Origin: Acidobacteriota bacterium
GTDB lineage: Bacteria; Acidobacteriota; Vicinamibacteria; Vicinamibacterales; JAFNAJ01
Length of the DNA stretch: 33,948 nucleotides
Direction: 5' to 3'
NCBI GenBank assembly: GCA_016789685.1
Contig: JAEUQQ010000460.1
Location: 1 to 33,948, forward strand
The position numbers were made by a program, and so were the translations under genes. Under the pieces are notes generated by a model. That model worked only from the letters and a program-made list of their open reading frames with translations. It ran no database searches and was not told the origin of the DNA. Positions 12,791-33,948 of the stretch are shown piece by piece (the stretch's first letter is position 1; each line of letters begins with the position of its first letter).

Positions 12791-14095
12791 CTACCGCTTC
12801 GTGGCCGTCGTCGAGAACAGCTGCGGGGTGAACTCCGCGAGGTAGTGACGCCACTTCACCCACGTGTGCGCGCCATCGGTCTGCTTGAAGACGGGCGTGA
12901 ACCCGTGCTTCTCGAAGAACGTCACGGTCGCCTGCGTGGTCGTGAACAGGAAGTCGTCCTTGCCGGTGGCGAACCAGAACATCAGGCCCTTCCTCAGCGT
13001 CGCGTCGGCGAGCTTCGCGGCATGGAGCGTCGCCCACTCGTCGGCCGTGGGGCCGAGGCGGGGTGCAGGAGGTGCCGACGCTGCGGGTGCCCCGGGAGCG
13101 GCCGCGGGCGCGCCGGGCATGCGGATCTGCACCTCGGGGAACCCTCCAATAAGTCCCGAACTGAAGACGCCCACATACGCGAACTGCTCGAGGTGCGGGA
13201 TGGCGACATTGAGCGTCTGGTGGCCGCCCATCGAGAGCCCGGCGATCGCGGTGTTCGCGCGGCCCTTCCGCACGCGGTAGTGCGACTCGATGTACGGCTT
13301 CACGTCCTTCGCGAAGTCGTCGACGAAGGCCTGTGTCGCCGATGGACCCATCGCGGCTGGGCCCCGGACGTGTCCCGCCGGCATGACGACGATCATCGGC
13401 ACCGCCTGCTTCGCGGCGATGAGGTTGTCGAGGATGACGTTCGCGCGGCCCACCGACGTCCACGACTCGTCGCTGTCGCCGGCCCCGTGCAGCAGGTAGA
13501 ACACGGGATACGACGCCGTGCCGGTCTCGTAGCCGGGCGGCGTGTAGACGTGCATGCGGCGGAACTGGCCGAGCGAGGTCGACCTGTAGGTGACGCTCGC
13601 GACGGCGCCGTGTGGCACGTCCTTCGTGTCCGCCACGTCAGACCCGGGCACGTAGACCACGCTCCACGTGTTCTGGTTCGACTCGCTGGTCGCCGGGTTG
13701 CGCGGATCGATCGTGGCCACACCGTCCACGTTGAAGTTGTAGCGGTAAGCGCCTGGCTCCGACGCGCCGACCGTGACGTCCCAGATGCCGCTCTCGGCCT
13801 TCGTCATCTGGAGGGCGTCTGGTGCAAGACCCTGGATGTCGCCCGCGGCCACACGCACGGCCTGCGCACGCGGCGCGAAGATCCGGAACGTGATGCGCCC
13901 GTCGGCGGCGACCTCGGGCGACACGTACTGCGGCGGACGTTGCGCGGCCGGGGGCGCCTGCGCCGGCGGCGCGGCCGGCAGACGCGCGGCCTCCTGTGCC
14001 GAGACGACGGTCACCGACAGCCCGGCGACGAGGGCAGATGCGGCGGCGGCGCGAACGACACGGCCGCAACGAGCGCGTGAGACGTGCAGGATCAT
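12791..14095 (-). CDS. Secreted CE1/enterochelin-esterase-like hydrolase with E-set domain (esterase 1)
   Basis: The 434-residue protein starts at the ATG at 14095 (GGAG six bases upstream) with a Sec signal ending near VSAQ (34). A Pro/Ala linker leads to an E-set, CBM48-like domain (about 57-130; YVSPEVAADGRITFRIFAP, then YRYNFNVDGVATIDP). The alpha/beta-hydrolase follows: YTPPGY, YPVFYLLHGAGD, nucleophile Ser288 in GLSMGG, acid Asp380/381 in GKDDF and His410 in GAHTW. A Pro/Ala-rich insertion (about 327-347) sits near the active site. CE1 enzymes with this layout remove acetyl or hydroxycinnamoyl groups from polysaccharides; the substrate here is not determined. It is the last gene of the minus-strand run. 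Confidence 0.9.
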   Translation of the reverse strand: MILHVSRARCGRVVRAAAASALVAGLSVTVVSAQEAARLPAAPPAQAPPAAQRPPQYVSPEVAADGRITFRIFAPRAQAVRVAAGDIQGLAPDALQMTKAESGIWDVTVGASEPGAYRYNFNVDGVATIDPRNPATSESNQNTWSVVYVPGSDVADTKDVPHGAVASVTYRSTSLGQFRRMHVYTPPGYETGTASYPVFYLLHGAGDSDESWTSVGRANVILDNLIAAKQAVPMIVVMPAGHVRGPAAMGPSATQAFVDDFAKDVKPYIESHYRVRKGRANTAIAGLSMGGHQTLNVAIPHLEQFAYVGVFSSGLIGGFPEVQIRMPGAPAAAPGAPAASAPPAPRLGPTADEWATLHAAKLADATLRKGLMFWFATGKDDFLFTTTQATVTFFEKHGFTPVFKQTDGAHTWVKWRHYLAEFTPQLFSTTATKR

Positions 14096-14190
14096 GAGTG
14101 GCTCCAGTGCCGTGCGCGTGGCACGGCACGCAGGTCGTTCACTGTCGTACCAGCGCCGCGCGTGCCCCGTCGGGGCACCGCGGGCCTCCG

Positions 14191-15216
14191 CTACTTCACC
14201 CCGGCCGTGTCGAGCCTGAAGAACCGTGCGGCGTTGTTGTACAGGATGTCGCGCTTCTGCTGGGTCGTGAGGTAGTCGGCATTCTGGATCAGGCTGATCG
14301 AATACGTCATCAGCTTCGGCCACATCATCTGGTCGGTGCCGAACATCACGCGGTCCTGGAAGCCGGCATCGACGAGGCGTTCGATGTAGCGGTTCACTTC
14401 CTTGATCGGGTAGCTCCAGATCAGGCCGGCGACGTCGACGTAGACGTGCGAGCTGGCCTGCAGCAGCGCCAGCATGTTGTCGATCATCGGGTAGCCGGCG
14501 TGCATCACCTGCACGCGCAGTTTCGGGTGGCGTGCCAGCAGTTCCTCGAGCAGGAAGGGATCGCCCTTCGACGCCCTGAACGTCGGCCGGCTGACGTTCG
14601 ATCGCCCGGATCCGCCGGTGCCCATGTGAATCGCAACGGGGATGTCGAGTTCCTCGGCGAGCGCGAAGTACTGGTCGACGCTCATGTCGCTCGGCGAGAT
14701 GCCCTGGTACTGCAGCCCGATTTCGCCCATCACCTTGATGCCACCCTGCGTGAACGCGACGCGCAACTGTTCGACGGGGATGCGCTTGCCGCCCGACTCG
14801 AACGGTGCGCCGGGGATGATCCGGCCGGGCGCGGCCGCCTGCCATCTCTTCACCTGCTCTGGCGACCCGAAGACGACGGCCGTGACGTTGAGGCGCTCCA
14901 TCTCGGCGACGACGTCCTTCAGGTACTCGCCAGGCTTGGCCGGGTAGAGCTTCGGCGAGCACTCCTCCTGCACCCACCCGAACGGCGCTTCGGGCCCCTT
15001 CGGATCCGACGCGACGAAGTTCGACGTGTTGGGGCACATGGGCTGGGCGTTGGGACCCGATTCGTCCATCGCGTGGAAGTGCACGTCGATGATCGGCGGC
15101 ACGTCCTTCGAGGTGTTCTGGGCCGCCGACACGATCGGCAGCCCGAGCAGCAGCGCCGCCGCGCACAACAGCGTGGTCGAGGGCGTGCGCCGGGCAGGTC
15201 GTGAGGATCTCGTCAT
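14191..15216 (-). CDS. Exported amidohydrolase (amidohydrolase-2 family)
   Basis: The 341-residue protein begins at the ATG at 15216 with GGAGA upstream and has a signal peptide (TLLCAAALLLGLPIVSA). The TIM-barrel metal ligands of the amidohydrolase superfamily are visible: His46 and His48 in IIDVHFHAM, His197 in PVAIHMGTG, His239 in VQVMHAGYP and Asp295 in MFGTDQMMW. The amidohydrolase-2 branch contains hydrolases and metal-dependent decarboxylases of aromatic acids. Which reaction it performs is unknown; export from the cytoplasm is unusual for a decarboxylase and fits a hydrolase better. Its ATG overlaps the stop of esterase 2 (ATGA), so the two are coupled. Confidence 0.88.
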   Translation of the reverse strand: MTRSSRPARRTPSTTLLCAAALLLGLPIVSAAQNTSKDVPPIIDVHFHAMDESGPNAQPMCPNTSNFVASDPKGPEAPFGWVQEECSPKLYPAKPGEYLKDVVAEMERLNVTAVVFGSPEQVKRWQAAAPGRIIPGAPFESGGKRIPVEQLRVAFTQGGIKVMGEIGLQYQGISPSDMSVDQYFALAEELDIPVAIHMGTGGSGRSNVSRPTFRASKGDPFLLEELLARHPKLRVQVMHAGYPMIDNMLALLQASSHVYVDVAGLIWSYPIKEVNRYIERLVDAGFQDRVMFGTDQMMWPKLMTYSISLIQNADYLTTQQKRDILYNNAARFFRLDTAGVK

Positions 15217-16427
15217 CTCGTCTTCTCCTGGAACAGCATCGGCGCGACCTCGGCGAGGTTGCGGCGCCAGACCATCCATGTGTGCCCGCCGGGCGTCTCG
15301 ACCGTGGTCGGCCTCACCCCCTTCGACGCAAGCCACGCCGCGAACTGCCGGTGTGGCTCGAGCAGGCCGTCGTCGACGCCCATGCCCAGCCAGAAGAGCC
15401 GCAACTTCGCGCCGACAGGCGGACCAAGGGCCGGGAAGCGCTTCTCGAAGGCGCTGCCGTCGAGCGGCGGCCGCGGCGCCCCTGGCAGCGCCGACGACCC
15501 GTACATCACGTACGCGCCGCTGAAGCCCGCGACCCACGCGAACGTGTCGGCGTTGTTGAGGCCGATGTAGCAGGCCTGCGCGCCGCCCATCGAGAGCCCG
15601 ACGATCGCACGGCCCTCGCGTGCCTTCGTCGTGCGGTACGCCGCCTCGACCTGCGGCAGCACCTCCCTGATGACCGACTCGCCGAAGTTCGTCATGCTGG
15701 CGGGATCCGCCATGCCCTGGAAGCTCGTGCGCGCGCTCGCCACGCCGTACCCCAGCGTGTTGACCATGATCATCGGCGTCGCCTTCCCCGCCGCGATCAG
15801 GTTGTCGAGGATCACGTTCGCACGCCTCGCTGTCGTCCAGGCCGACGCGTCGTCGGTGATGCCGTGGAGCAGGAACAGCACGGGATAGGTCGACGCCTTC
15901 GACGCGTCGTAGCCGGGTGGCGTGTAGACGTAGTAGTCGCGCTCGTCGCCGACGATGGCCGACTTGTAGTAGTGGTGATGGACGACACCGCGAGGCACGG
16001 TGCCGATCTCCCACGGGAGCGAGACCGGCCCGGGCACGTGCACCAGGCTCTGGCTGCCGCCTGGCAGCACGGCCTTGACGAAGGCGTTCCCCGGATCCGC
16101 GATCTGCAGTCCATCCACCACGAAGTTGTAGGGGTAGATGTCTGGCGGCAGGGTCTCGGTCGTCGCCGTCCACACACCCTCGTCGCCGGCGGTCATCGCC
16201 AGCGGTGGCGCGCCGGCGCGGTTGACGATCACCGCCTTGGCGTTGGGCGCCCGCAGGCGGAACGTGATACGGCCATCGGCCGATACCTCGGGCGATCGCA
16301 CCATGGCACGGAACATTGCCGACGGGCTCGGGGCGGGCGCAGCGGGAGGTGCCGGGGGCTGCTGGGCGAACGACGGGCTCGCGGCGAGAGCGGCGAGCGA
16401 CACGCTGAGTGCAATCGATCTGAACAT
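15213..16427 (-). CDS. Secreted CE1-like esterase with E-set domain (esterase 2)
   Basis: The 404-residue protein starts at the ATG at 16427 with GAGG five bases upstream; the frame is open earlier, but the signal peptide (MFRSIALSVSLAALAASPSFAQ) fixes this start. The E-set domain (about 44-115; RSPEVSADGRITFRLRAP, YPYNFVVDGLQIADP) is followed by the esterase domain: YTPPGY, YPVLFLLHGITDD, Ser279 in GLSMGG, Asp352/353 in GVDDG and His382 in GGHTW. It is clearly paralogous to its neighbours but diverged throughout, so the duplication is old. It is coupled by ATGA overlap to the amidohydrolase gene downstream. Confidence 0.9.
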   Translation of the reverse strand: MFRSIALSVSLAALAASPSFAQQPPAPPAAPAPSPSAMFRAMVRSPEVSADGRITFRLRAPNAKAVIVNRAGAPPLAMTAGDEGVWTATTETLPPDIYPYNFVVDGLQIADPGNAFVKAVLPGGSQSLVHVPGPVSLPWEIGTVPRGVVHHHYYKSAIVGDERDYYVYTPPGYDASKASTYPVLFLLHGITDDASAWTTARRANVILDNLIAAGKATPMIMVNTLGYGVASARTSFQGMADPASMTNFGESVIREVLPQVEAAYRTTKAREGRAIVGLSMGGAQACYIGLNNADTFAWVAGFSGAYVMYGSSALPGAPRPPLDGSAFEKRFPALGPPVGAKLRLFWLGMGVDDGLLEPHRQFAAWLASKGVRPTTVETPGGHTWMVWRRNLAEVAPMLFQEKTR

Positions 16428-16497
16428 CACGACCTCGTGGGACGCAGGCGGCGTGGGCCGCGCCGGGAACGACCCGACGCGGCCGGCCATGCAACGA

Positions 16498-17871
<1,374 letters not shown>

Positions 17872-19068
17872 CTACCTGGCGGCCTTGAACAGGTTCGGCA
17901 GCAGGCTCGCGTGCAGCAGGTAGCGCCACGTCGCCCAGTCGTGGGCGCCGTTGCCTCCGATGACGTAGTCGTGCTTCACACCATGCTTCTCGAGGATCTG
18001 GTGAAAGACGACACTGCGGTTCGCCGGCTGGTTCTCGTGCGTACCGAGACCCACCAGCAGGTAGTCGACCTTGGTGTTGATGTCGCGGTCGTTCAGGAAC
18101 TCGGGCGTCGACGTCTCGGATGCCGGATCGCCGGCGCTCAGCACACCGAACGACGCGAACAGATCGAGGGCCTTGAAGCCGACGAGCTGCGTGTGGCGCC
18201 CGCCCATCGACAGGCCGGCGATGGCACGTGCGCGCCGGTCGTTCCTGACGCGGTACTGCCCCTCGACGAGCGGGATGATCTGCGTGCGCAGTTCGCGCGC
18301 GAAGAGGTCGAACGTCAACGCGGTGTGCTTCGGGTCGTTGCGATGCACGACCTGGTTGTTGGGCATGGCGATGATCATCGGCACGGCCTTGCCCTCGGCG
18401 ATGAGGTTGTCGGCGATGAACGTGGCCCGTCCATCGAGCCACCAGCCCGACGCGAGCTCGCCGCTCCCACCCAGCAGGTAGAGCACGGGGTACGTCTTCG
18501 CCCGATCGTAGCCGGGAGGTGTGTAGACGTACATCTCGCGCTCGCCGTTGAGGACGGTCGAGTGGTAGACGTGGCGCGTGAGCGTGCCGTGCGGCACGGG
18601 CCTGGCGTCGTAGTACGCCGGCCCCTTGCCGTGCACGACCAGGTTGCTGTAGCCCGGCTGGTCGCCGAACCCCGTCAGCGTGTTGCCGGGATCGGTCACC
18701 GCCGCACCATCGATCACGAACTTGTAGACGTAGATGTTGGGCGGAATCGGGCCAATCGTGAGCGTCCAGATCCCATCGTCGCCCTTGGTGAACGGCCACG
18801 GCTTCACCTCGCCGTTGAGCGCCGCGTTGATCGTGCCCGCCGACAACAGCACCTCCTGCGCTCGTGGTGCCTTGAGGCGGAACGTCACCATCCCCTCGTC
18901 GGTCACGTCGGGCGAGATGACGTTGGCCATGAACGGCACGAGCTGCTGCGTGTTCCTGTGCGGATTCCAGTCGAGATTGACGTGCGCCTGCTGGGCCGAC
19001 GCGAGCGACGGCATGGATCCCATCGACAGCGCCGCGAACGCGATCGCCACCCGTGCGTGTGAAGTCAT
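17872..19068 (-). CDS. Secreted CE1-like esterase with altered active site (esterase 4)
   Basis: The 398-residue protein is read from the ATG at 19068, which has GGGA eight bases upstream; an ATG at 19074 is the alternative. It has a Sec signal ending near LASAQ, an E-set domain (about 48-128; VISPDVTDEGMVTFRLKAP, YVYKFVIDGAAVTDPG), then YTPPGYD, nucleophile Ser287 in GLSMGG and His376 in GNGAHDW. Two family positions differ: the usual YLLHG is YLLGG (199-201), losing the oxyanion-region His, and the catalytic Asp region reads GLGTHENQ, so a Glu or another residue must serve as acid. The gene is otherwise intact, so it is a divergent paralogue rather than a pseudogene. Confidence 0.87.
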   Translation of the reverse strand: MTSHARVAIAFAALSMGSMPSLASAQQAHVNLDWNPHRNTQQLVPFMANVISPDVTDEGMVTFRLKAPRAQEVLLSAGTINAALNGEVKPWPFTKGDDGIWTLTIGPIPPNIYVYKFVIDGAAVTDPGNTLTGFGDQPGYSNLVVHGKGPAYYDARPVPHGTLTRHVYHSTVLNGEREMYVYTPPGYDRAKTYPVLYLLGGSGELASGWWLDGRATFIADNLIAEGKAVPMIIAMPNNQVVHRNDPKHTALTFDLFARELRTQIIPLVEGQYRVRNDRRARAIAGLSMGGRHTQLVGFKALDLFASFGVLSAGDPASETSTPEFLNDRDINTKVDYLLVGLGTHENQPANRSVVFHQILEKHGVKHDYVIGGNGAHDWATWRYLLHASLLPNLFKAAR

Positions 19069-19135
19069 GGTCATGATCCCGATGCCGGTGCAGACCGGAG
19101 GCGCAGGACGCGCCTCCGGCACACCGCTGTTGGCC

Positions 19136-20836
19136 CTAGGTCGTCGGCAGCGCCTTGCGCGCGTCGCGATCCGGGTCGTTCTTCACCACGCAGGTGTCGT
19201 CGAGGATCATCACCTCGCCGGCTGCGGGCGTGTACCGCGGCCAGGCTGGCAGCCCGGTGCCATTGGGATCACCGGTCTTCATGAATTGCAGCAACTGGCC
19301 CGCCATCACCTGGCCGAGCTTCCGCGGACGGCTCCCGCCGCCCGTGTGGGTCCACATCAGGTCGGTGTTGTTGAACCAGAAGCAGATGTCGACGCAGTGG
19401 AAGGCGCGGATGCGGCCGTCGAACATCGGCGGCTGCCAGCCGAACCAGGCGACGAACACCGGCGGCGCCTGCTTCGCCTTGGCGTCGGCGAGCGTGACGA
19501 CGCCCTGGCGGTTGCTGCTCACCAGCGACCAGATCTCGACGGGCTTCTTGTCGGGGAAGGCCCTGGCGTAGGCATCGACGACCGCACGGGCCCGGTCGCC
19601 GAAGCCTGCACCGAACCCCGCGCGCTCCTTGACCTTGTCGACCACCTGGTCGAGCGTCACGTTCTCGAGCGACGCGTCGATCCAGCTCGGCGCCTGCTCG
19701 TTGAACGTCGAGCAGATCAGCATCGGGATGCTGGCCGCCGTCGGTGCCGGCTCGGGCACGTACGGATCCTGCGGGATGATCGTGCCATCGACGATGGGGT
19801 TGAACCCGCGGCGCATCATCCCGCCCGGGCCCATCTCGGCGGCCAGCTTCTGCTGGGCCCGGTTGGCGATGGTCAGGTACTGCTGCCAGGGCATCGCCTG
19901 CAGCTTGTCGACGTCGGTGGGCCCGAGGCCCGCCTCCTTGAGGACGTATGCGCCGAGCTTCTCCGAGTACTCCTTGTCGCCGCTGCGCACCGTGGCGCCG
20001 CTGAGCACGACGGCCTTGTGGAACAGGCCCTTCGCGCTCGGCATGGCGGTCGTGGTGCACACCTTCGCGCCGCCGCCCGACTGCCCCATGATCGTGACGT
20101 TGCCGGGATCGCCGCCGAAGTTGGCGATGTTGTCGCGCACCCACTCGAGTGCCGCGACCAGGTCGAGCATGCCGACATTGCCAGACGCCGCGTACCTGGC
20201 CCCACCGACGGCGGCGAGGTTCGTGAAGCCGATCGGGCCGAGGCGATGGTTGACCGACACGAACACCGCGTCGCCCATGCGGGCGAAGTTCTCGCCGTTG
20301 TAGCCGTCCTGCTCGATGCCGCTGCCGTTGGTGAAGCCACCGCCGTGCATCCAGAACAGCACCGGGCGCTTCTTCCCGTCATTGATCCCGGGCGTGAACA
20401 CGTTCAGCCGCAGGCAGTCCTCGCTCACGTCGTCGTAGTTCCAGTGATCGCGCCACGACCCGAAGGCGTTCGCGTACCGCTTCTCCATCACCTGCGGCGC
20501 GGTGTTGCCCCACCAGAGGGCAGGGAACACGTCGGTCCACGGCTTCGGCTTCTGCGGCGGCATGAAGCGGTTGGCGCCGGACGTGTCGGCGCCGTAGGGC
20601 ACGCCGAGATAGTGGTAGATGCCGCGCAGGATGTAGCCGCGCACCTTGCCATTGGTCGTGTTCGCGACCGCGATGTGCTCGCCGATCTGTACGATCGGCC
20701 CCTCGTCGGCGACGGGTGCCTTCGCGGCCGCCTTGCCCCTGGCCTGCCCGGCCGAGAGCGTGGCCGACGAGCCGATGGCCAGGCCGGCGGCCCCGGCGCC
20801 GACGGTGTTCAGAAACTCACGCCTGCTGCGTCCCAT
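19136..20836 (-). CDS. Tat-exported type-B carboxylesterase (1)
   Basis: The 566-residue protein starts at the ATG at 20836 after a strong AAGGAGG. The N-terminus is a twin-arginine signal (SRREFLNTVGAGAAGLAIG). The carboxylesterase type-B fold is clear: GVPYGAD, SEDCLRLNVFTPG, oxyanion loop [32 protein letters not shown] with Ser253, Glu380 in STFNEQ and His480 in AFHCVD. The family hydrolyses carboxylic esters of many kinds; export to the periplasm or beyond fits the neighbouring CE1-like esterases. It is less similar to the two carboxylesterases at 27074-30600 than those are to each other. Confidence 0.92.
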   Translation of the reverse strand: MGRSRREFLNTVGAGAAGLAIGSSATLSAGQARGKAAAKAPVADEGPIVQIGEHIAVANTTNGKVRGYILRGIYHYLGVPYGADTSGANRFMPPQKPKPWTDVFPALWWGNTAPQVMEKRYANAFGSWRDHWNYDDVSEDCLRLNVFTPGINDGKKRPVLFWMHGGGFTNGSGIEQDGYNGENFARMGDAVFVSVNHRLGPIGFTNLAAVGGARYAASGNVGMLDLVAALEWVRDNIANFGGDPGNVTIMGQSGGGAKVCTTTAMPSAKGLFHKAVVLSGATVRSGDKEYSEKLGAYVLKEAGLGPTDVDKLQAMPWQQYLTIANRAQQKLAAEMGPGGMMRRGFNPIVDGTIIPQDPYVPEPAPTAASIPMLICSTFNEQAPSWIDASLENVTLDQVVDKVKERAGFGAGFGDRARAVVDAYARAFPDKKPVEIWSLVSSNRQGVVTLADAKAKQAPPVFVAWFGWQPPMFDGRIRAFHCVDICFWFNNTDLMWTHTGGGSRPRKLGQVMAGQLLQFMKTGDPNGTGLPAWPRYTPAAGEVMILDDTCVVKNDPDRDARKALPTT

Positions 20837-23227: not shown

Positions 23228-26200
23228 CTAGAACTGGAAGCGCGCGAGCAGCTGGATTTCGCGCGGCGGCCGCTGCGCCGTGACGGCGCCGAAGCCCGAG
23301 CGGTTGACGACGTTGCCTGACGCGTCGGTCGCCAGGTTCGTCGGCGTGGGATCCGCATAGCTGCGAACCGTCAGCACCGAGTTGATCGCCGTGAACTGCG
23401 TCGTGTTGAGGGCATTGAACGCGTCGAGCCGCAGCTCGAGGCGGCGTCCGCCGCCCATCCTGATGAACTTGCTGATCGAGATGTCGAGGTTGTTCTGCGA
23501 CGGTCCGACCAGGTAGTTCTTCCCCGACTCGAGGCCCTTGCTGCCGACGGTGGGGATCTTGAAGCACGACGTGTCGAACTGCTTGTACGGGTCGCTGCTG
23601 TGTCCGCTGCCTGGGTCGCAGGTCACGACGAGGCGCGCGCCTTCGAGGCCCTGCGTGCCCGTGTAGGTGTAGGGCGACGTCCCGGGCACGGTGAAGGTCG
23701 GCGTGTAGGGCGCACCCGACACGATGCGGTAGACGCCCGACATCTGCCAGTCGTTGATGATGGCGGCAAGGGCGCCGCCGCGCTGGAGCTTGGGCAGCTC
23801 CCACACGAACTGGCTCACGAAGCTGTGCCGGCGGTCGTAGTCGAGCGGGTAGTAGTTGGCCTCGTCCTGGAACTCGTCGTTGCGCGGGAAGCCGACCACG
23901 CTGGGGTTGGGGTTGTTGTTGCCGGCCGGCAGGTCGACGCTCGACGTGCCCATCGCCTTGCCGAGGGTGTAGTTGAACGAGATCAGCACACCCTTCTGGA
24001 ACCGGCGGTTGAACGACATCTGCAGCGAGTTGTAGTCGGCATACGCGCTGGTGTCGACCATGAAGATGTTGCCGTAGCCCTGGTAGGGCCGCAGGAAGTC
24101 GACCGGCAGGGCCGAGGCGCCGGGAATGGCGCTGACGGCGACCGACGGATCCTGGTTCTGCGGCAGGTACGCAGCGCCGTAGGCGGGCGCGTTGATGTTC
24201 TTCTGCGTGTGCTGGTTGCGGCTGCGCGTGCCGACGTACGACACGTCGAGCACCGAACGCCAGGGCAACTGCAACTGCACGCCGACGTTGAACGCGTAGA
24301 CCTTCGGGAAGGTGCCGTCCTGCTCGAAGGCAAACAGGGTCGGCGGCGCCACGAGCGCGCTGCCCGAGTTGACGTCCTGGAGGCGGCCGTAGAACAGCGT
24401 CGGCTGCACGACCGTGGGCGGCTGCTCGATCATGCCGTACACCGTGTCGCCCATCGGCCGGTTGTAGAAGATGCCGGCGCCGCCGCGAACCACGATCTGC
24501 TGCTTGCCCGTGACGTCGTACGACATGCCGAAGCGCGGCGCGTACTGGATGCCGGCGTTCTCGTAGAGGTACTTGTCGATGCCGTCACCGGCCTTGTAGA
24601 GGCCGTTGAGCAGCGTGCCCGAGCCGGGCACGATGCGGCCGATGGCCGCGGCCGGCTGCGTCTGGCCGGTGACGCGGTCGAGCGCGACGCGCACGCCGTT
24701 GACGAGCGCCGGGTAGTACAACCGCGGCGCGGCCGACGCGCTCCACTTGTCGGGCAGGAAGTTCGACGTCTGCTGCCTGGTGTCGTAGGTCGGCTGCATC
24801 CAGTAGAACCGCAGGCCGTAGTCGAGCGTGAGGTGATCGTTCACCTTCCAGTTGTCCTGCGCGTACCACTCGACGTTGTGGTAGAGGTAGTTCCCCTGCA
24901 CCCAGTCGGCGGCCTGCACGTAGGTCTGGTAGATGCCGAGCGCCGCATTCGCGAACGGGTAGCTCGAATCGAACGGGTTCGACGCATCGTTCGTGAAGGC
25001 CACGCTGCCGTTGGCTGCTGCGCGGCTGCTCTGGGGCTTGAGGCCGCGGTTGACGTACACCCCCACCTTGGCGGTGTGCTGGCCCCAGTTCTTCGTCAGG
25101 CTGGCCGACACGTCCTGCGACGTGTTGACGTTGATGAACGGCGCGTACTCGGTCGAGTTCGTCGGCGACGTGGTGCCGACGCGGCCGCCCCACGTGAAGC
25201 GCGGCGGCAGGTCGAGCTGCACCGCGCCCGGATACAGCATCGGGAACGCCGACAGGCCGAGCGCCGACTTGTTGAACGCATCCGGATACCGCGGCAGGTT
25301 CGTGAACGAGTTGCGCGCACGGCCGTAGGTGGCTTCCATGAACATCGAATTCGTGATCGTCCACGCCGCGGTGAACGACATGCCGCGCGTGTAGCGATCC
25401 GAGTCCTCGTACCCGAAGTCGGGGATGTTGGTCGAGAAGCCCGTCGTGCCGCCGCCGTAGGGCACGATGTTGTAGCCCATGTTCTGCAGCAGCTTGCCGT
25501 AGAGGCGCAGGCTCTGCGTGGGGTTCCAGTCGACGCGGATCAGGTCCTGCCGGCGGGGCGCTTCCTGCGCTTCCTGCGACACGTAGTTGTAACCCTGGTT
25601 GATCGTGCCCGGGCTGTTGGCCGCCGGGTACATGTTCAGGATGTTGACGCCGACCTGGTACAGCCGGTTCTGCGGGATGCGGCCGAGCACGCCGCCGTCC
25701 TGGAAGCAGCCGCTCGTGTTCGTCGCGCTGCACGGCAGCCCCGTCGTGTAGTCGCGGATGTACGGATACAGGTTGCCCGCGCTGTCACGCGTCTGCGAGA
25801 AGTCGCCGCGGCGCTCGAGTTCCGTGGGCACGCGGACGTTCACCGGCGACGTCTGGGCGATGAAACGCTTCTGGAACTCCTGGTTCACGAAGAAGAAGAG
25901 CTTCGACGTGCTCTTGCTCATCTTGCCGGGCACGATCACCGGGCCACCGAACGTGTAGCCGATGTCGCGCTGCTGCAGCTCGGGCACCGGCAGCTTCGGG
26001 GTCGCGCGGTTGTTGAACCACGTGTTGGAGTTGAGGTCGTCGTTGCGGCGGATGAAATAGCCTGACCCGTGGTAGTCACGGCCGCCGCTCTTGGTCACGG
26101 CCGTGATCTGCGCGCCCGCCGACCGGCCATACTCGGCCTGGTAGTTCGACGTCAGCACCTTGATCTCCTGCACGGCGTCGGTCGCGAGCGCGACCATCGG

Positions 26201-26839
26201 GCCCTGGTTGCTGCCCGTGTCCATGCTGGTGATGCCGTCGATCTGCACGTTGTTCTGGTTCGCGCGCATGCCGTTGGCGCTCATCGTGTTCGACTGCGCG
26301 CCAAGGGCGCCGGGCGCCGACGTCGCCGTGTTCACGATACCTGCCGAGTTGAACGCGAGCCCGAAGAAGCTGCGGCCATTCTGCGCGATGCTCTGCACGG
26401 CCTCACCTTCGATCGCAAACGACCGCTCGGCGCTCTTGGCCTGCAGTTCGGTCGTCCGCGCGGCGACCATGACGGTCTCTTCGAGGCCGCCGATCTCGAT
26501 CGTCAGCGTGCCGAACGTCTTCTTGTCGCCCGCGTTGACCTGCACGTCGGGCACTTCAAGGGTCTTGAACCCCGCCATCGTCACCGTGAGCTTGTACTTG
26601 TCGGCCGGCACGATCGGGAAGACGAAGTAGCCCTCCTCGTTCGTCACGGCTTCGACCGTCGTCCCCGTCTTCAGGCTGGTCAACACCGCCGTCGCCCCGG
26701 GAATCACCCCCGCCTGGGCGTCCTTGATCGTCCCCGCCAGCGACGCGCTCGTGACCTGCGCGTCGGCGATCTGCCACCCTCCGAACACGAACAACACGGC
26801 TGCCAGCACGGCCAACCGCACAGTCCTGCCAATTCTCAT
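23228..26839 (-). CDS. TonB-dependent receptor with carboxypeptidase-regulatory-like domain (Oar-like)
   Basis: The 1203-residue outer-membrane protein starts at the ATG at 26839 with AGGGG seven bases upstream. It has a signal peptide ending near IADA/Q (27/28), a carboxypeptidase-regulatory-like beta domain (about 30-115; SLAGTIKDAQAGVIPGATAVLTS, YFVFPIVPADKYKLTV), a TonB plug (about 120-265; NGRSFFGLAFNSAGIV, NNVQIDGITSMD, VLTSNYQAEYGRSAGAQITAVTKSGG), and a long barrel ending in LLARFQF with a C-terminal Phe. Length and layout are those of the abundant acidobacterial Oar-like receptors. It should import or bind a large solute, powered by TonB. No SusD-like lipoprotein is next to it. It is flanked by esterases and has its own strong terminator. 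Confidence 0.95.
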   Translation of the reverse strand: MRIGRTVRLAVLAAVLFVFGGWQIADAQVTSASLAGTIKDAQAGVIPGATAVLTSLKTGTTVEAVTNEEGYFVFPIVPADKYKLTVTMAGFKTLEVPDVQVNAGDKKTFGTLTIEIGGLEETVMVAARTTELQAKSAERSFAIEGEAVQSIAQNGRSFFGLAFNSAGIVNTATSAPGALGAQSNTMSANGMRANQNNVQIDGITSMDTGSNQGPMVALATDAVQEIKVLTSNYQAEYGRSAGAQITAVTKSGGRDYHGSGYFIRRNDDLNSNTWFNNRATPKLPVPELQQRDIGYTFGGPVIVPGKMSKSTSKLFFFVNQEFQKRFIAQTSPVNVRVPTELERRGDFSQTRDSAGNLYPYIRDYTTGLPCSATNTSGCFQDGGVLGRIPQNRLYQVGVNILNMYPAANSPGTINQGYNYVSQEAQEAPRRQDLIRVDWNPTQSLRLYGKLLQNMGYNIVPYGGGTTGFSTNIPDFGYEDSDRYTRGMSFTAAWTITNSMFMEATYGRARNSFTNLPRYPDAFNKSALGLSAFPMLYPGAVQLDLPPRFTWGGRVGTTSPTNSTEYAPFINVNTSQDVSASLTKNWGQHTAKVGVYVNRGLKPQSSRAAANGSVAFTNDASNPFDSSYPFANAALGIYQTYVQAADWVQGNYLYHNVEWYAQDNWKVNDHLTLDYGLRFYWMQPTYDTRQQTSNFLPDKWSASAAPRLYYPALVNGVRVALDRVTGQTQPAAAIGRIVPGSGTLLNGLYKAGDGIDKYLYENAGIQYAPRFGMSYDVTGKQQIVVRGGAGIFYNRPMGDTVYGMIEQPPTVVQPTLFYGRLQDVNSGSALVAPPTLFAFEQDGTFPKVYAFNVGVQLQLPWRSVLDVSYVGTRSRNQHTQKNINAPAYGAAYLPQNQDPSVAVSAIPGASALPVDFLRPYQGYGNIFMVDTSAYADYNSLQMSFNRRFQKGVLISFNYTLGKAMGTSSVDLPAGNNNPNPSVVGFPRNDEFQDEANYYPLDYDRRHSFVSQFVWELPKLQRGGALAAIINDWQMSGVYRIVSGAPYTPTFTVPGTSPYTYTGTQGLEGARLVVTCDPGSGHSSDPYKQFDTSCFKIPTVGSKGLESGKNYLVGPSQNNLDISISKFIRMGGGRRLELRLDAFNALNTTQFTAINSVLTVRSYADPTPTNLATDASGNVVNRSGFGAVTAQRPPREIQLLARFQF

Positions 26840-27073
26840 GAAAGCACCCCTTTTGAGGTCACCGATTTCCACGGTCGCTGGAATGCCACCTGCGCATCCT
26901 CGCTCACCCCTGCTCGCCCGGCCCGCCGGCGGCGTACACCCTCGTCGCCTCACCTTCGACCCGCGCGCCCTGCCCGGTACTCCACTGCACGTGCACGTCT
27001 CAGCCCCCACCCTGCACCAGGCAGCGGCCCGGCAACCCACGCCGCGGCGGCTGCCGGCCCTCTCCCCTCCCCA
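26840..27073. other. Intergenic region upstream of the TonB receptor
   Basis: The 234 bases between the second carboxylesterase and the receptor should hold the receptor promoter. A small inverted repeat, TTCCA (26867-26871) and TGGAA (26879-26883), sits 27 bases before the receptor ATG and could be an operator, but it is too short to be convincing. No copy of the LytTR-type box was seen here by eye. Confidence 0.4.
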
Positions 27074-28813
27074 TCAGGTCGCGCTCGTGATGACCTGCCG
27101 CGCTGCGCGATCGGGGTCGTCCTTCACGGCGCAGGTGTTGTCGAACACCATCACCGCCCCCCGCTGCGGCTCGAACGCCGGCCAGGCGGGCAACCCTGCG
27201 TGGTTCGGGTTGCCGCTGCGCGCGAAGTGAATCCACGCGTCGCTCACGCGCTCGGCCAGGACGCGCGCCGCGTCGGTGCCGCCCGTCATCGCGGCGCACC
27301 GGTCGGTGTTGTTGAACACGAACGGCAGCTCCGAGCAGTGGAACGCCCGGGGACGCCCGTCGAGGATCGGCGTCTGCCACGCGAACAGGTACAAGTACGC
27401 GGGCGCCGCCCCGAGCGCCGCCTTCCGCGTGGCCTGCGTGGTCGACACGTACCGGTGCACCGCCGCCGTGACCTGCGAGTAGATGTCGAACGGCCTGGCC
27501 GCCGGGTACAGCGCGCGATACGCGTCGATGACACGCGACGCGCTCGCGCCGTAGCCCGCACCGATGCGCTCGCGCAGCTCGGCGTCGGTCATCTGCTCGA
27601 GCGCGGGTCGATTGAGCGTGTGCCCGTTCTCGTTGAAACAGCACCCGATCAGCATCGGCACGTGCGCGGTCATCGACGGCGCGACCGGGTCGAACGGGTG
27701 CGTGGGCAGGATCGTGCCGTCGACGACGGGCACGAAGCCGGTGCGGTCGCCGAACACGATGCGCCTGACGCCACGCTCGGTGTCGGGTTGCAGCGTCGCC
27801 ATCGCGCCGCTGGCCGCCGCCAGCAGCTTCTCGTACGGCACCGACTGGATCTCGTCGATGCGGGCCGCGGTGATGCCCAGGGCGGCGAGCGTCGCGGCCG
27901 CGACCTTCGCCCCCATCTCGGCGCCGCCGACGCGGTTGTTCGACGCGCTCTGCACGGCGGCACGGTGGAACAGCCCCCTGGCCGCCGGCATGGCCATCAG
28001 CGTGCTGACCTTCCCGCCGCCGCCCGACTGCCCGAAGATCGTCACGTTGCCAGGGTCGCCACCGAAACGCGCGACGTTGTCGCGCACCCACTCGAGCCCG
28101 AGCACGAGGTCGAGCATGCCGACGTTGCCGGCGCTCGCGTACTTGCTCCCGTAGGCCGCCAGGTGCAGATACCCCAGCACGTTGAGCCGATGATTCAGCG
28201 AGACGACCACCACGTCGCCACGGCGCGACAGGCGCTCGCCGTCGTAGGCCTTCAGTTCCTGGCTCGAACCGTTCGAGAAGCCGCCGCCGTGCAGCCACAC
28301 CATCACCGGGCGCTTCCTGGCGTCGAGCCCGGGCGTCCACACGTTCGCGCGCAGGCAGTCTTCGCCCGGCTGCCCGTCGTCCCACTCGAACATGAACGCC
28401 TCTTCGTCGTTCTTCCAGCCGTCGCGCGGCCCATGCGGCGCAACGGGGCCGTAGTAGAGCGCGCTGCGCACGCCCGTCCACGGCGCAGGCTTCGTGGGCG
28501 GCATGAAACGCGCCCCTCCCGCCGTTGACGCCCCGTACGGAATGCCCTTGAACGTGTGGATGTCGCGATACCGCGCGCCGCGGACCTTGCCAGCCGTTGT
28601 CTCGACGACCGAGCCGCCGTCGGTGGCCACGATCAGCGCCCCGCCCGCTGGTGCGACCGGCGCCTGCGCCGCCGACGCGAACGCCGGCAGGCTCGCCGCC
28701 GCCGCGCCGACCAGCGCGGCCGCGCCCTTCAGGAGCCCGCGGCGATCGAGCCCCGTGCCCTGGTTCGTCGTGTCTGCGGCCGCGCGGGCCGTCGTGTCGC
28801 CGTGTTCGAACAT
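27074..28813 (-). CDS. Tat-exported type-B carboxylesterase (2)
   Basis: The 579-residue protein starts at the ATG at 28813 with GGGA nine bases upstream. A twin-arginine signal ([25 protein letters not shown]) lies unusually far in, after 22 residues. Type-B carboxylesterase landmarks: [20 protein letters not shown], oxyanion loop [34 protein letters not shown] with Ser263, Glu395 in FNENG and His492 in [13 protein letters not shown]. It is closely related to the gene just upstream (28867-30600), sharing long blocks such as [14 protein letters not shown] and [15 protein letters not shown], so the two are a tandem duplicate, probably co-transcribed across 53 bases. Confidence 0.92.
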
Positions 28814-28866
28814 CTCAATCGTCCCTTTGCGTCGTCGGGCAAGGTGGCGCGCGTCGTCTCGATGGC

Positions 28867-30600
28867 TCAGACGGTTGGTATCGTCGACCGCTCGGTGCGG
28901 TCGGGGTCGTTCCTGAGGGCGCAGGCGCGGTCGAAGACCATCACGGGCCCTGCCGACGGTTCAAACGCGGGCCATGCCGGAATGCCCGCGTGTGCAGGGC
29001 TGCCCGTTCGCGCGAACGCAATCCAGGCATCGCTCATCCGGCCCGCCAGCTCGATCGCCTCGGGCGTGCCGCCCGTCATCGCTGCGCAGCGTTCGGCGTT
29101 GTTGAAGACGAACGGCAACTCGGCACAGTGGAACGCGCGAGGACGGCCATCGAGGATGGGCGTCTGCCACGTGAACCAGTAGAGAAACGCCGGTGCCCCA
29201 CCCTGCGCGTGCTTCCGCGTGGCCTGCGCGATGGCGTTGAGCCGCTGCGTGGCGCCCGCGATGCGCGAATACACGTCGGGCGGACGCGCACCCGGCATCG
29301 CACGCATGTACGCCTCGAGCACCCTCGTCGCCTGGTCGCCAAACGCCGCGGTGGCGCGCGTGCGCAGGTCCTGCCCGGTGATCGCCTCGATGCCCGCGTT
29401 CTGGATCTCGTTGGCGAATTCGTTGAGCGTGGATCCGATCAGCATCGGCACCTGCGCCGAGACCGCCGGCGCCGCCGGATCGAACGGGTGCTGCGGCAGG
29501 TGCACGCCATCGACGACCGCGGCGAGGCCGTTGCGGTCGCTCACCGCGAAGCGCTGGAGCGTGCCGGTGCCGCCGGCCCCGCCCGTCGCCAGCGTGCGCT
29601 GGGCGGCCTGCGCGGCGGCCAGCAGCCGCGCGTGCGGCATCGTGTGCAACTGTTCGACCTGTGCGGCGCTCACGCCGAGTTCGGCGAGCGTCTGCGCCGC
29701 CAGCCGCGTCGAGTACGTCCTGGGCACCATCCGCAGCCCGGAGCCGCTCTGCACGGCCGCACGGTGGAACAGCCCCTGCGCGGCCGGCATGGCGAGCAGC
29801 GCGCTGACCTTGGCCCCGCCACCCGACTGCCCGAAGATCGTGACCTTGCCGGGATCGCCGCCGAAGCTGGCGATGTTGTCGCGCACCCAGCCGAGCGCCG
29901 CGACGAGATCGAGCATGCCCGCGTTGGCCGACGACGCGTAGCGTTCGCCGTAGGCGCTCAGGTCGAGATACCCGAGGACGTTGAGGCGGTGGTTCAGGGT
30001 CACGACGACGACGTCGCCGCGGCGGCTGATATTCTCGCCGTGATACGACTTGAGCTCCTGCCCGGAACCGGCAAGGAACTGTCCGCCGTGAATCCACACC
30101 ATCACGGGGCGCTTCGCGTTGTCGAGCCCGGGCGTCCAGACGTTGACGCGCAGGCAGTCTTCGCCTGGCTGGCCGTCGTCCCATTCGAAGACGAACGCTT
30201 CCTCGTCGCGCTGCCACCCGCCGCGGGCCCCCTGCGGGCAGGTCGGGCCGTACCAGAGCGAGCTGCGAACGCCCGCCCATGGCGTCGGGCTCGAGGGCGG
30301 CATGAAGCGCGCCGGCCCGGCCGGGCTGGCGGCGTAGGGAATGCCCTTGAACGTGACGATGCCGCCGCTGGTGAATCCCCGCACCTTGCCGGCCGTTGTC
30401 TCGGCGATGGCGCCGCGATCCGAGGCGGCGACGACCCGCGAGGTCGACGGCGTCGACGGCTGGGGCCTGGCCTGCGCCAGCACCTGGGCGCCCGCGCTGG
30501 CGACCGCGGCTCCGGCCACCGCCGCCGCGCCGGCGAGGACGTCGCGACGGCTCAGGCCTGCACGCGCCCCGCCCCTGGCAGCATCACTGTCGCTGGACAT
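28867..30600 (-). CDS. Tat-exported type-B carboxylesterase (3), HGGQ oxyanion variant
   Basis: The 577-residue protein is read from the ATG at 30600, which has GGAG six bases upstream; an in-frame ATG at 30612 is less well placed. It has a Tat signal [23 protein letters not shown]. Landmarks are [49 protein letters not shown] with Ser259, Glu394 in TLNEF and His491 in [13 protein letters not shown]. The oxyanion loop reads IHGGQF rather than HGGGF, unlike its two paralogues in this window. It is the first gene of the minus-strand run and diverges from the LytS/LytTR operon; the shared upstream region carries a LytTR-type box. Confidence 0.9.
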
Positions 30601-30953
30601 GTCCACTCCCATCGAATCGCAAGGCCCACGCGCCATGCGCGGGGCAACGGAGAGCAAGAACGAACGAGTCGCACGCGGTACGGTGCCGCGCCCGGGTGCC
30701 GGGCGCCACGGCCCGGTGAACCACCGGACGCTGGCCTGACCGCCGAGGCTGATGGGGATCGATTCCCTCAGCACATGGCCACGGTTTACACGCATCGCCG
30801 GGCTGCCGGTGAGTCGTTTGTTACGAGCCGGACGCTGGTGTCACGAGGCGGTCGCCTTCCTGCCCCCCGGCGCGCTACCCTTCTGCGCGGCGGTCACGGG
30901 CGTGCCCGCAGGAGGGGCGCGCTCCGTCGCGCCGGAACAGGGGGATCGTCCCG
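30601..30953. other. Divergent regulatory region between carboxylesterase 3 and the LytS-type kinase
   Basis: The 353 bases hold no convincing gene. The right half carries the LytTR-type direct repeat (30817-30846) and a TACCCT -10-like hexamer (30876-30881) pointing to the kinase gene. The left half, up to about 30780, should hold the carboxylesterase promoter, but no clear -35/-10 pair was found there. Confidence 0.6.
30817..30846 (+). promoter_or_regulatory. LytTR-type direct-repeat box, copy 1
   Basis: GTTACGA (30820-30826) and GTCACGA (30840-30846) are imperfect direct repeats with a 20-bp period, about two helical turns, the spacing LytTR regulators use. The 30-bp element matches copy 2 at 26 of 30 positions, including the bases between the repeats. 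TACCCT follows 29 bases later, and 107 bases separate the box from the ATG at 30954. It probably mediates autoregulation of the operon. Confidence 0.7.
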
Positions 30954-32126
30954 ATGGAACGTTCGATCGTCGATGAGCTCCCGTCGGTGCGCGCCGACGC
31001 GATTCGGCGCGATGCAGAGGCGCGAGACGCCCGACAGGGCACGCGCAGGCGGCTCCCACGCTGGCTGCTGGGGTTCGGCTTCTGGACGTTGATCGTCCTC
31101 GCGTATTCGACGCGGCAGGAGCTGCGCTTCGGACCGTACGAGTGGATGCCGATCTCGTGGTTCGAGGCCTTCAAGGCGGCGGTGGCGCAGTGGTACTCGT
31201 GGGGCATCCTGTCGATCGCCATCTACTGGGTGAACCGGACGCTGCCGTTCGCGCCCAACGCGCTGCTCAGCCGGCTGGCGGTGCACATCCCGCTGAGCAT
31301 CGTCTTCACGGTCGCGTACAGCTACATCGACTACGGTGCCACGCACCTGCTCGACGCGCCCAGCGACCGGAACTGGGTGGGGCCGACCCTGTTCGACACC
31401 ATGGCGAGGGTGACGTACCGCCTGGGGACGTTCGTCTACTGGGCCATCGCGATGGTGTGCATCGCGCTCGACTACCAGGCCGACGTGAAAGACCGCGAAG
31501 TGCGGGCGGCCGAACTCGAGCGGCTGCTCTCTGAGGCGCGGCTCGAGACGCTGCGCACGCAGCTCGATCCGCACTTCCTGTTCAACACGCTCAACTCGAT
31601 CTCGGCCTACGTCGAGAGCGCGCCGCGCGAGGCACGCCTGATGCTCGAGCGGCTCGGCGATCTGCTTCGCCGCTCGATGGAGCACGCCTCGGAGCAGGAG
31701 ATCTCGCTCGAGCGCGAGCTGGCCTTCGTCGATCTCTACATCCAGCTGCAGCTCGTGCGGTTCTCAGACCGGCTCGACGTGCGCGTCCGCGTGGATCCCG
31801 ACGTGACGGCGGCGGCCGTCCCGACCTTCATCCTGCAGCCGCTCATCGAGAACGCCATCCGCCACGGCATCGCAAAGCTCACGACGCCGGGCATGATCGA
31901 ACTGGCCGCCTGGCGGAGTGGCGATCGGCTGCACCTGCGCGTACGCGACAACGGCCCGGGGCTGCCGCCGGGATGGCGGCTCGACCAGCACGTCGGCGTG
32001 GGACTGGGCAACACGCGGGCCCGGCTCACACACCTCTACGGTCCTGACGACTTCTCGCTCGACGTCAGCCGAGACGACGAGCGCGGCACGTGCGTCGACG
32101 TGACGCTACCCTATCGGCCGCTGTGA
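30954..32126 (+). CDS. LytS-type sensor histidine kinase
   Basis: The 390-residue inner-membrane kinase starts at the ATG at 30954 with GGGGGA eight bases upstream. Four membrane helices (about 37-52, 80-93, 106-124 and 154-172) form the sensor module. A short coiled coil (DVKDREVRAAELERLLSEARLE) leads to the His_kinase domain with His207 in LDPHFLFNTLNSISAYV, then an HATPase domain with FILQPLIENAIRHGI, DNGPGLPPG and VGLGNTRARL. It should autophosphorylate and pass phosphate to the LytTR regulator encoded 17 bases downstream. The signal is unknown; the membrane-embedded sensor suggests an envelope or hydrophobic cue. Confidence 0.93.
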   Translation: MERSIVDELPSVRADAIRRDAEARDARQGTRRRLPRWLLGFGFWTLIVLAYSTRQELRFGPYEWMPISWFEAFKAAVAQWYSWGILSIAIYWVNRTLPFAPNALLSRLAVHIPLSIVFTVAYSYIDYGATHLLDAPSDRNWVGPTLFDTMARVTYRLGTFVYWAIAMVCIALDYQADVKDREVRAAELERLLSEARLETLRTQLDPHFLFNTLNSISAYVESAPREARLMLERLGDLLRRSMEHASEQEISLERELAFVDLYIQLQLVRFSDRLDVRVRVDPDVTAAAVPTFILQPLIENAIRHGIAKLTTPGMIELAAWRSGDRLHLRVRDNGPGLPPGWRLDQHVGVGLGNTRARLTHLYGPDDFSLDVSRDDERGTCVDVTLPYRPL

Positions 32127-32143
32127 GCGGAAGGACCGGCAGC

Positions 32144-32923
32144 ATGGCCAGCATCAGGACGATCGTGGTGGACGACGAGAAGCCGGCGCGCATGCGCCTG
32201 CTCGAGTTGCTGCAGCGCGAGACCGAGATCGAGGTCGTGGCCACGGCGTCTGACGGCAACGACGCGGTCGCGCAGATTCGCGCCACCAGGCCCGACCTCC
32301 TGTTCCTCGACGTCCAGATGCCTGGCCTCGACGGGTTCGGCGTCCTGCAGCAGCTCGCGCACGACGAGATGCCGGTCACGATCTTCGTGACGGCGTACGA
32401 CAAGTACGCGATCCAGGCGTTCGATGCGCACGCGATCGACTACCTGCTCAAGCCATTCAGCGACCAGCGTTTCGAAGCGGCCGTGGAACGCGCGCGCCGG
32501 TACCTCGGCACGCCAGAGGCCCGCGAGCGGGCCGACGAGCTGGCCGCGGCCACCCAGGAGCGGCGCAGCGTCAACGCACGATCGGGGTTCCTCGAACGTC
32601 TCGTGCTCAAGTCGAACGGCTCGGTGACGTTCCTCAGCGTCGAAGACGTCGACTGGGTCGAAGCCGCCGGCGTCTACGTGAACCTGCACGTGGGGCCCAA
32701 GGTGCACCTGTACCGGTCGAGCGTGACGCAGCTGTTGCAGCGCCTCGACCAGCGCCAGTTCGTGCGCATCCACCGGTCGGCGGCCGTCAACGTCGCAAAG
32801 ATCCGCGAACTTCGCACGCGATCGCACGGCGACTTCACGGTCATCCTCAAGAACGGCGGCGAACTCGCCATGAGCCGTGGGTACCGCGCCAACCTCGAGT
32901 CCTGGCTGAAACAGCCGCTCTAG
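32144..32923 (+). CDS. LytTR-family response regulator
   Basis: The 259-residue regulator starts at the ATG at 32144 with AAGGA eight bases upstream. The receiver domain has Asp10/Asp11, Asp56 (LLFLDVQMP), the TAYDKYAIQAFD segment and Lys in YLLKPFS. A LytTR DNA-binding domain follows (about 150-255; VEDVDWVEAAGVYVNLHV, QFVRIHRSAAVNVAKIREL, LAMSRGYRANLESWL). LytTR domains bind pairs of short direct repeats about two turns apart. Such a pair stands upstream of its own operon and again upstream of the following esterase gene, which makes that esterase the best supported target. Confidence 0.95.
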   Translation: MASIRTIVVDDEKPARMRLLELLQRETEIEVVATASDGNDAVAQIRATRPDLLFLDVQMPGLDGFGVLQQLAHDEMPVTIFVTAYDKYAIQAFDAHAIDYLLKPFSDQRFEAAVERARRYLGTPEARERADELAAATQERRSVNARSGFLERLVLKSNGSVTFLSVEDVDWVEAAGVYVNLHVGPKVHLYRSSVTQLLQRLDQRQFVRIHRSAAVNVAKIRELRTRSHGDFTVILKNGGELAMSRGYRANLESWLKQPL

Positions 32924-32927
32924 CCCT

Positions 32928-32957
32928 TTTGTTACGAGACGGACACCGGCGTCACGA
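32928..32957 (+). promoter_or_regulatory. LytTR-type direct-repeat box, copy 2
   Basis: GTTACGA (32931-32937) and GTCACGA (32951-32957), again with a 20-bp period, begin eight bases after the regulator stop codon. TAACCT (32986-32991) follows 28 bases later as a -10-like hexamer, and 107 bases separate the box from the esterase 5 ATG at 33065, the same distance as in copy 1. An inverted TCGTGAC at 32975-32981 might be a third half-site. Confidence 0.7.
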
Positions 32958-33064
32958 ACGGCCCCGACGCAACGTCGTGACGCGATAACCTGCATCGCGT
33001 CTGCGGCGCGTGCGCGCGCGAGGTGCGTCGCCGCCCGCCGCCTCGACCACACAGGGAGTTCGCA

Positions 33065-33948
33065 ATGCGGGTTCTTGCTTCTGCACTTGTCGGCCTCTGC
33101 CTCGTCGCGGGATCCGCGTCCGCGCAGGCGCCCCGGCCAGGACCAACGCCGATCGTGTCGCCCGAGATCCTGCCCGACGGGCGTGTCACCTTCCGCCTGC
33201 TCGCGCCCGAGGCCACCAGCGTGTCGGTCACCGGCGACTGGCCGGGCGGCATCGAGAGCACGACCACGCCGATGGTGAAGGACGCCGCGGGCATCTGGTC
33301 GGCGACGATCGGCCCGCTGGCGCCGGAGTTCTGGATCTACACGTTCAGCGTCAACGGCGTGACCACGCTCGATCCCCGCAACGTCAACACGCGGCGCAAC
33401 ACGACCCGGATCGAGAACACGCTGCTCATCCCGGGCCCGGCGTCGTCCGACTACATGGTGAATGCGGTGCCGCACGGCACGGTGTCGTTGCAGTGGTACG
33501 CCTCGCCCACGGTCGACGCGACGCGGCGTGCTTACGTGTACACGCCGCCCGGCTACGAAAGCGGACGCGACCGCTACCCGGTGATGTACCTGCTGCACGG
33601 CGGCAGCGGTGACGAAGACGCGTGGTCGTCGTGCGGACGCGCCACGCAGATCCTCGACAACCTCATCGCGCAGGGCAAGGCCGCGCCGATGATCGTCGTC
33701 ATGCCCAATGGCAACACCACACGCATCGCGTCGCCCGACCTGGTGCCGGCGCCACCGGCGCTACCGGCCAACCAGGATCCCGGCAGGTTCCGCAAGTTCC
33801 CCGAAAGCCTGGTCAACGACCTCGTCCCGTTCATCGACGCGCACTACCGCACGCGTGCGGATCGCGACCACCGCGCCATCGTCGGCCTCTCGGTCGGTGG
33901 CGCCCAGACGATGTACGCGGCGTTCAATCACCTCGACCTGTTCGCATG
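33065..33948 (+). CDS. Secreted CE1-like esterase with E-set domain (esterase 5), partial
   Basis: The frame starts at the ATG at 33065 (GGGAG six bases upstream) and is open to the right edge; 294 residues are visible and the C-terminus with the catalytic Asp and His lies outside. A short Sec signal (MRVLASALVGLCLVAGSASA/Q) is followed by an E-set, CBM48-like domain (about 30-105; [40 protein letters not shown]), then [45 protein letters not shown] and Ser276 in GLSVGG. Closest in layout to esterase 3. Its position behind the LytTR regulator with a matching binding box suggests it is the direct output of that system. Confidence 0.9.
   Translation, partial: MRVLASALVGLCLVAGSASAQAPRPGPTPIVSPEILPDGRVTFRLLAPEATSVSVTGDWPGGIESTTTPMVKDAAGIWSATIGPLAPEFWIYTFSVNGVTTLDPRNVNTRRNTTRIENTLLIPGPASSDYMVNAVPHGTVSLQWYASPTVDATRRAYVYTPPGYESGRDRYPVMYLLHGGSGDEDAWSSCGRATQILDNLIAQGKAAPMIVVMPNGNTTRIASPDLVPAPPALPANQDPGRFRKFPESLVNDLVPFIDAHYRTRADRDHRAIVGLSVGGAQTMYAAFNHLDLFA

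Follow-up and report, generated by a model that had tools for sequence, protein, structure and literature searches.

A candidate LytTR-type operator between divergent promoters and a predicted secreted-esterase regulon in an Acidobacteriota bacterium

Introduction

The closest described counterparts of the locus analyzed here come from Streptococcus mutans, Staphylococcus aureus and Escherichia coli. In the LytTR Regulatory Systems (LRS) HdrRM and BrsRM of Streptococcus mutans, direct repeats 11–13 bp apart lie 4–11 bp upstream of the -35 element; they are placed upstream of the regulator's own operon and mediate positive autoregulation (PMC6193735). The receiver-LytTR regulator of the AgrCA system in Staphylococcus aureus activates the divergent promoters P2 and P3, one of which serves its own operon, from repeats near -60 (PMC4227749); BtsR and YpdB of Escherichia coli each control a single transporter gene (PMC5552118). 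The Acidobacteriota are rich in LytTR kinase-regulator pairs, with dozens of regulator matches per genome; in the open-access subset of the literature, no paper was found on a characterized LytTR regulon in this phylum, or on the two-way use of a single repeat pair.

The present locus lies in a 33,948-nt stretch of a vicinamibacterial Acidobacteriota genome (contig JAEUQQ010000460.1, assembly GCA_016789685.1; hereafter the window). It shares with HdrRM and BrsRM a LytTR regulator and direct repeats upstream of the regulator's own operon; if a 17-bp promoter spacer is assumed, the repeat would end 5–6 bp upstream of -35, matching their layout. In contrast to these systems, which combine a LytTR protein with a membrane inhibitor, the window encodes a kinase with an HATPase_c domain and a receiver-LytTR protein; the half-site is longer and of other sequence, the targets are secreted esterases, and the sites are predicted to be usable both ways. 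An LRS consists of a LytTR regulator cotranscribed with a membrane inhibitor and no kinase, whereas the partner here is a histidine kinase. The likeness to AgrCA is a receiver-LytTR regulator at divergent promoters, one of them for its own operon (activation being a prediction here); yet AgrCA has a separate repeat pair for each promoter, and the window has a single pair between two mirrored -10 elements. With BtsS/BtsR and YpdA/YpdB the locus has in common a kinase-LytTR pair and, as a candidate here, a direct-repeat operator (PMC5552118, PMC4847170), but the regulator falls below the BtsR cut-off, there are five sites near esterases, and no GAF or 5TM domain was found in the kinase.

Results

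Genes and candidate operators in the window

The genes, candidate operators and -10-like hexamers are as follows.

23228–27040, minus strand: outer-membrane TonB-type receptor (CarboxypepD_reg and OMP_b-brl_4), 74% identical in the sister locus
27074–28813, minus strand: second TAT-signal-like carboxylesterase (PF00135, by Pfam)
28867–30600, minus strand: TAT-signal-like carboxylesterase (PF00135, by Pfam), first gene of the divergent operon
30783–30788, minus strand: -10-like hexamer TAAACC (reads leftward) for the carboxylesterase operon, separated by 28 bp from the opposite edge of operator A
30817–30853, plus strand: candidate operator A, 37 bp, two direct repeats with period 20 (core 30820–30846), conserved in the sister genome G023
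30876–30881, plus strand: -10-like hexamer TACCCT for the kinase operon, 29 bp downstream of operator A
30954–32126, plus strand: sensor histidine kinase, 390 aa (PF06580 His_kinase and HATPase_c)
32144–32923, plus strand: response regulator, 259 aa (PF00072, 1.8e-24; PF04397 LytTR, 4.3e-20; motif FVRIHRS), proposed to bind the operators
32928–32964, plus strand: candidate operator B upstream of the CBM48-esterase (core 32931–32957)
32986–32991, plus strand: -10-like hexamer TAACCT, 28 bp downstream of operator B
33065–33948, plus strand, cut by the contig end: secreted esterase (CBM_48 and PF00756 Esterase), 82% identical to a sister-locus esterase

The initial annotation had named the kinase and regulator a LytS/LytTR system. 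The pairing of a PF06580 kinase with a receiver-LytTR regulator holds, and the kinase has the His_kinase and HATPase_c domains of LytS/BtsS/YpdA-type kinases; Pfam found neither a 5TM-5TMR_LYT nor a GAF sensor domain, nor any other family, in its 390 aa. The best NCBIfam match of the regulator was the BtsR model NF008677 (169.7 bits, below the 246-bit cut-off); a PDB search with it yielded receiver domains only, among the matches listed. The true start of the outer-membrane receptor lies downstream of its ORF start, and no peptide pheromone genes were seen.

The window is esterase-rich at 12791–20836 and 27074–33948: the minus strand carries four PF00756 esterases and one PF00135 carboxylesterase, and these are followed by an SSF symporter, the outer-membrane receptor, two more carboxylesterases and, past the kinase, a further esterase. 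Within this locus the boxes occur only at its last groups.

Structure of the repeat element

The sequence GTTACGA-N13-GTCACGA occurs without mismatch at 30820–30846 and 32931–32957, its only exact matches within the window. The 30-mers around it (30817–30846 and 32928–32957), both starting with TTT, are identical at 26 of 30 positions; these boxes, with direct repeats of 20-bp period, had been described from the window before, and each proves to be the core of a longer element. Aligned sites define about 37 bp, TTTGTTACGAGCCGGAC followed by nnTGTCACGAGCCGGTC, or two direct repeats of about 17 nt with period 20. The two halves agree at 8–13 of 17 positions at a shift of 20, clearly more than at other shifts, and self-comparison of the aligned sites found no inverted symmetry. 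By its sequence, the 37-bp element is a head-to-tail pair, the layout described for LytTR proteins. Measured against the published LytTR consensus, it has the GTT core and the first repeat matches at about six of nine positions; the fit of the half-site is only loose.

Operator A occupies the divergent region between the carboxylesterase operon on the minus strand and the kinase-regulator operon on the plus strand. The distance of 107 bases from box to ATG, which the initial annotation had emphasized, is exact for both boxes (ATG at 30954 and 33065), but it fails as a rule, since other sites have about 99 bases (contig C29) or 117 (G023); the equality within the window is probably coincidental. 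As a signal it was dropped: box-to-ATG distances vary at other sites, and the distance from the box to the -10-like hexamer is conserved instead.

Genome-wide occurrence

Pattern and profile searches covered the whole genome of this bacterium (G000; 6.17 Mb in 777 contigs). GTYACGA-N13-GTYACGA had four exact matches, one of which, on contig C396, lacks the rest of the motif; with matches in other genomes that lack it as well, this loose pattern was rejected as a sole criterion for being too unspecific. The more complete pattern TTTGTTACGANNNGGACNNNNNNGTCACGA, with 22 specified bases and up to three mismatches allowed, matched four times in 6.17 Mb, and a reversed control pattern had no match genome-wide; TTTGTTACGA alone occurred six times, once at a contig end. 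The total is five sites, one of them reconstructed across two contig ends, and esterase genes adjoin four of the five. The genome-wide motif search that had been proposed earlier thus returned five rare sites, four by esterases, and not many unrelated ones.

Site A has the kinase-regulator operon on one side and, on the other, the leftward cluster in which two TAT-type carboxylesterases accompany a TonB-type outer-membrane protein; site B precedes the CBM48-esterase. Site C, on contig C564, lies beside a carboxylesterase that is 63–70% identical to the window pair and has the same relative (reverse) orientation. This gene (649–2387) is split between two frames – a pseudogene or an assembly error – with the upstream box intact. 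Site D, on contig C29, is located 99 bases before a carboxylesterase in the same orientation and has two mismatches in its second half. At site E, the ends of contigs C390 and C589 share 13 identical bases, GGGACGCCGGCGT, and join to TTTGTTACGAGCGGGACGCCGGCGTCACGAGCCGGAC, a full box. On the C589 side it adjoins an orphan PF06580 histidine kinase (150–1316) that shares 62% identity with the window kinase and lacks a neighboring regulator gene; on the C390 side, where positions 1–26 hold part of the box, it adjoins a DUF5916 gene. The orphan kinase may signal to the same regulator as the window kinase.

Since the genome contains only about eight convincing PF00135 genes and the box is present at three loci with them, the association of box and carboxylesterase is strong. 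No box was found at the other window esterases (12791–20836) or at the carboxylesterases on contigs C232 and C132. The boxes have unrelated surroundings at different sites, while the box itself and its spacing to the -10 do not change.

Spacing to -10-like hexamers on both sides

The TACCCT and TAACCT hexamers that had been reported 29 and 28 bases after the boxes are indeed there (30876–30881 and 32986–32991), and they form part of a wider regularity. When gene starts were used to assign directions, the forward side gave its best -10-like offset 28–29 bp downstream of the box (TACCCT, TAACCT, TACGCT, TACTCT), and 3 of 20000 rotations were as good; on the opposite side, where genes read the other way, it was 27–29 bp, and none of 20000 rotations was as good. 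Without assigned directions, the count was 0 of 20000 for each side. In 12 of the 18 flanks, TA stands at an offset of 27–29 from the box edge, where 0.85 would be expected; the motif is represented by few independent sites, five in this genome and four in two relatives. Flanks that do not face a gene start lack the hexamer, as on the right of the C564 box and on the left of B; a weak TACGGC is found on the non-gene side at contig C35 of genome G037, and on the gene side the C589 kinase is an exception, having no forward -10. Judged from these alignments, the conserved constraint is the distance from box to -10 on both sides, and not the 107 bp to the ATG. The unexpected part is the mirrored -10 spacing on both sides of an asymmetric site.

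The sister locus and other genomes of the order

G023 belongs to the same order and to another family; its regulator shares 78% and its kinase 67% identity with the window proteins. The locus keeps the box upstream of the kinase-regulator operon, the divergent carboxylesterase, the outer-membrane protein (74%) and the gene order. The initial annotation had named absence of the element upstream of orthologous operons as evidence against its reading; at this 78%-identical ortholog the box is present. In G023, whose leftward cluster begins at a single box, the CBM48-esterase ortholog (82%) sits at the distal end of that cluster, downstream of the outer-membrane protein gene. The window gene stands on the opposite side and has a box of its own; the gene has moved and the association with a box was kept. 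Between the two divergent regions, the box is identical at 34 of 37 positions, the reverse -10 block (GTTTACAC, at the leftward hexamer 30783–30788) at 8 of 8 and the forward -10 block at 11 of 12; pooled, box and both -10 blocks are identical at 53 of 57 positions, against 88 of 199 in the remaining spacer.

In a comparison of 162 genomes of the order, strong boxes were confined to G000, G023 and G037; all three are among the four genomes in which a regulator relative reaches E<1e-80. G037, where a histidine kinase/LytTR locus belongs to the same subfamily, has boxes ahead of genes for a GlcD-like oxidase, a Gfo/Idh-type oxidoreductase and a TonB-type receptor. In the alignment, the LytTR domains of the box-bearing group share YRSSVTQLLQRLD and R.HGD(F/Y) segments that are missing in the approximately 49%-identical paralogues; no box was found near the approximately 49%-identical regulators of other genomes. 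G009 lacks a convincing box despite its 60%-identical regulator, and in G033 a related box (E 4.5e-5) occurs without a close regulator. A separate contig scan with the regulator found distant relatives only (23–40% identity).

Matches in G015, G043 and G002 fall within genes and were regarded as chance. A match in G045 was also set aside; it lies on a 6.5-kb contig (C39) that is 98.2% identical over its length to contig C29 of G000 and is a probable contaminant of G045, and tetranucleotide composition groups C29 with G000.

Two further observations concern these relatives. The box variant of G033, TTTGTTACGRGARGGACCGGACGGTKGCGAGCCGG, forms the end of an interspersed 88-bp element that G033 shares with G023, a genome of the same genus, at 88% identity; the loci (L046 11500–11620 and L114 4490–4590) are unrelated. 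On contig C35 of G037, the gene at 4577–5056, beside a kinase, encodes a LytTR protein of this subfamily with almost none of its receiver domain left, and a full-length homologue is encoded about 5 kb away (9411–10103).

Discussion

The element is likely the operator of the regulator at 32144–32923, a LytTR-type activator site for divergent promoters within an autoregulated secreted-esterase regulon. This agrees with the initial annotation, which had assigned the box to the neighboring regulator; its place upstream of the regulator's operon, here and in the ortholog, its rarity and its esterase neighbors all point to this assignment. The autoregulated regulon with a secreted esterase, as first proposed, is supported as well, but it was drawn too small: it left out the apparent two-way use and the other candidate target loci, namely two more carboxylesterase loci, the divergent carboxylesterase and outer-membrane-protein genes, and the orphan kinase.

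In the proposed mechanism, the kinase (30954–32126) would phosphorylate the regulator in response to an outside signal, which may be something released when esters or polymers are broken down. The LytTR domains of the regulator would then bind the two head-to-tail half-sites (GTYACGAGCCGGWC, period 20), and the bound regulator would recruit RNA polymerase to weak promoters whose -10-like hexamer lies 27–29 bp from the box edge, which would place the operator center near -55. Since the hexamers on the two sides mirror each other in their distance from the box, a single asymmetric operator could serve promoters in either direction, most simply via the flexibly tethered C-terminal domain of the RNA polymerase alpha subunit. 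Predicted outputs are the regulator's own operon (as positive feedback), the divergent carboxylesterase and outer-membrane-receptor genes and the CBM48-esterase; two more carboxylesterases and the orphan kinase paralogue, which may feed the same regulator, would follow. For the fuller reading – a single head-to-tail dimer that drives divergent promoters, an element deployed either way round, and an esterase regulon with an orphan kinase feeding the same regulator – the sequence evidence tips the balance slightly in favor.

The boxes could alternatively be genuine operators of another transcription factor, with the kinase-regulator pair merely one of its targets; this is quite improbable. The imperfect co-occurrence of box and regulator (G009 and G033) and the loose resemblance of the half-site to the LytTR consensus would fit such a factor, but the boxes in the 162 genomes track close relatives of the regulator, which is also the only transcription factor recognized in the segment conserved between G000 and G023. 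The absence of inverted symmetry counts against most helix-turn-helix dimers, and period-20 head-to-tail repeats upstream of a weak own-operon promoter are the described LytTR layout (PMC6193735). The chance that the boxes are interspersed repeats or duplication relics, hitchhiking with paralogous esterase genes and devoid of a regulatory role, is very small, and this explanation is already disfavored: the C564 paralogue of the window carboxylesterases (63–70% identical) does have its box in the same relative orientation, and a box variant does sit within the 88-bp repeat of the sister genomes, yet the surroundings are unrelated between sites while box and -10 spacing are fixed, the box persists across genera, and the five sites adjoin unrelated families (PF00135, PF00756 and His_kinase).

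That each box is a one-way activator site serving one gene, with the opposite hexamers as coincidental AT-rich spots, is unlikely, though it accommodates the sites with a hexamer on one side only (B and C29) or on the other side only (C564, C73 and C131). Against it, both hexamers at site A and in G023 are conserved across two genera and the rest of the spacer is not, and the mirrored offset of 27–29 bp recurs at C564, C390, C73, C131 and C35, where the genes have the reverse direction.

As a predicted LytTR activator site with secreted-esterase targets, the system offers a concrete candidate operator with a short list of targets and, in secreted ester hydrolysis, a physiological theme. Should the two-way use be true, directionality would not be a requirement for an asymmetric head-to-tail activator site, and this would bear on the contacts that LytTR proteins make with RNA polymerase.
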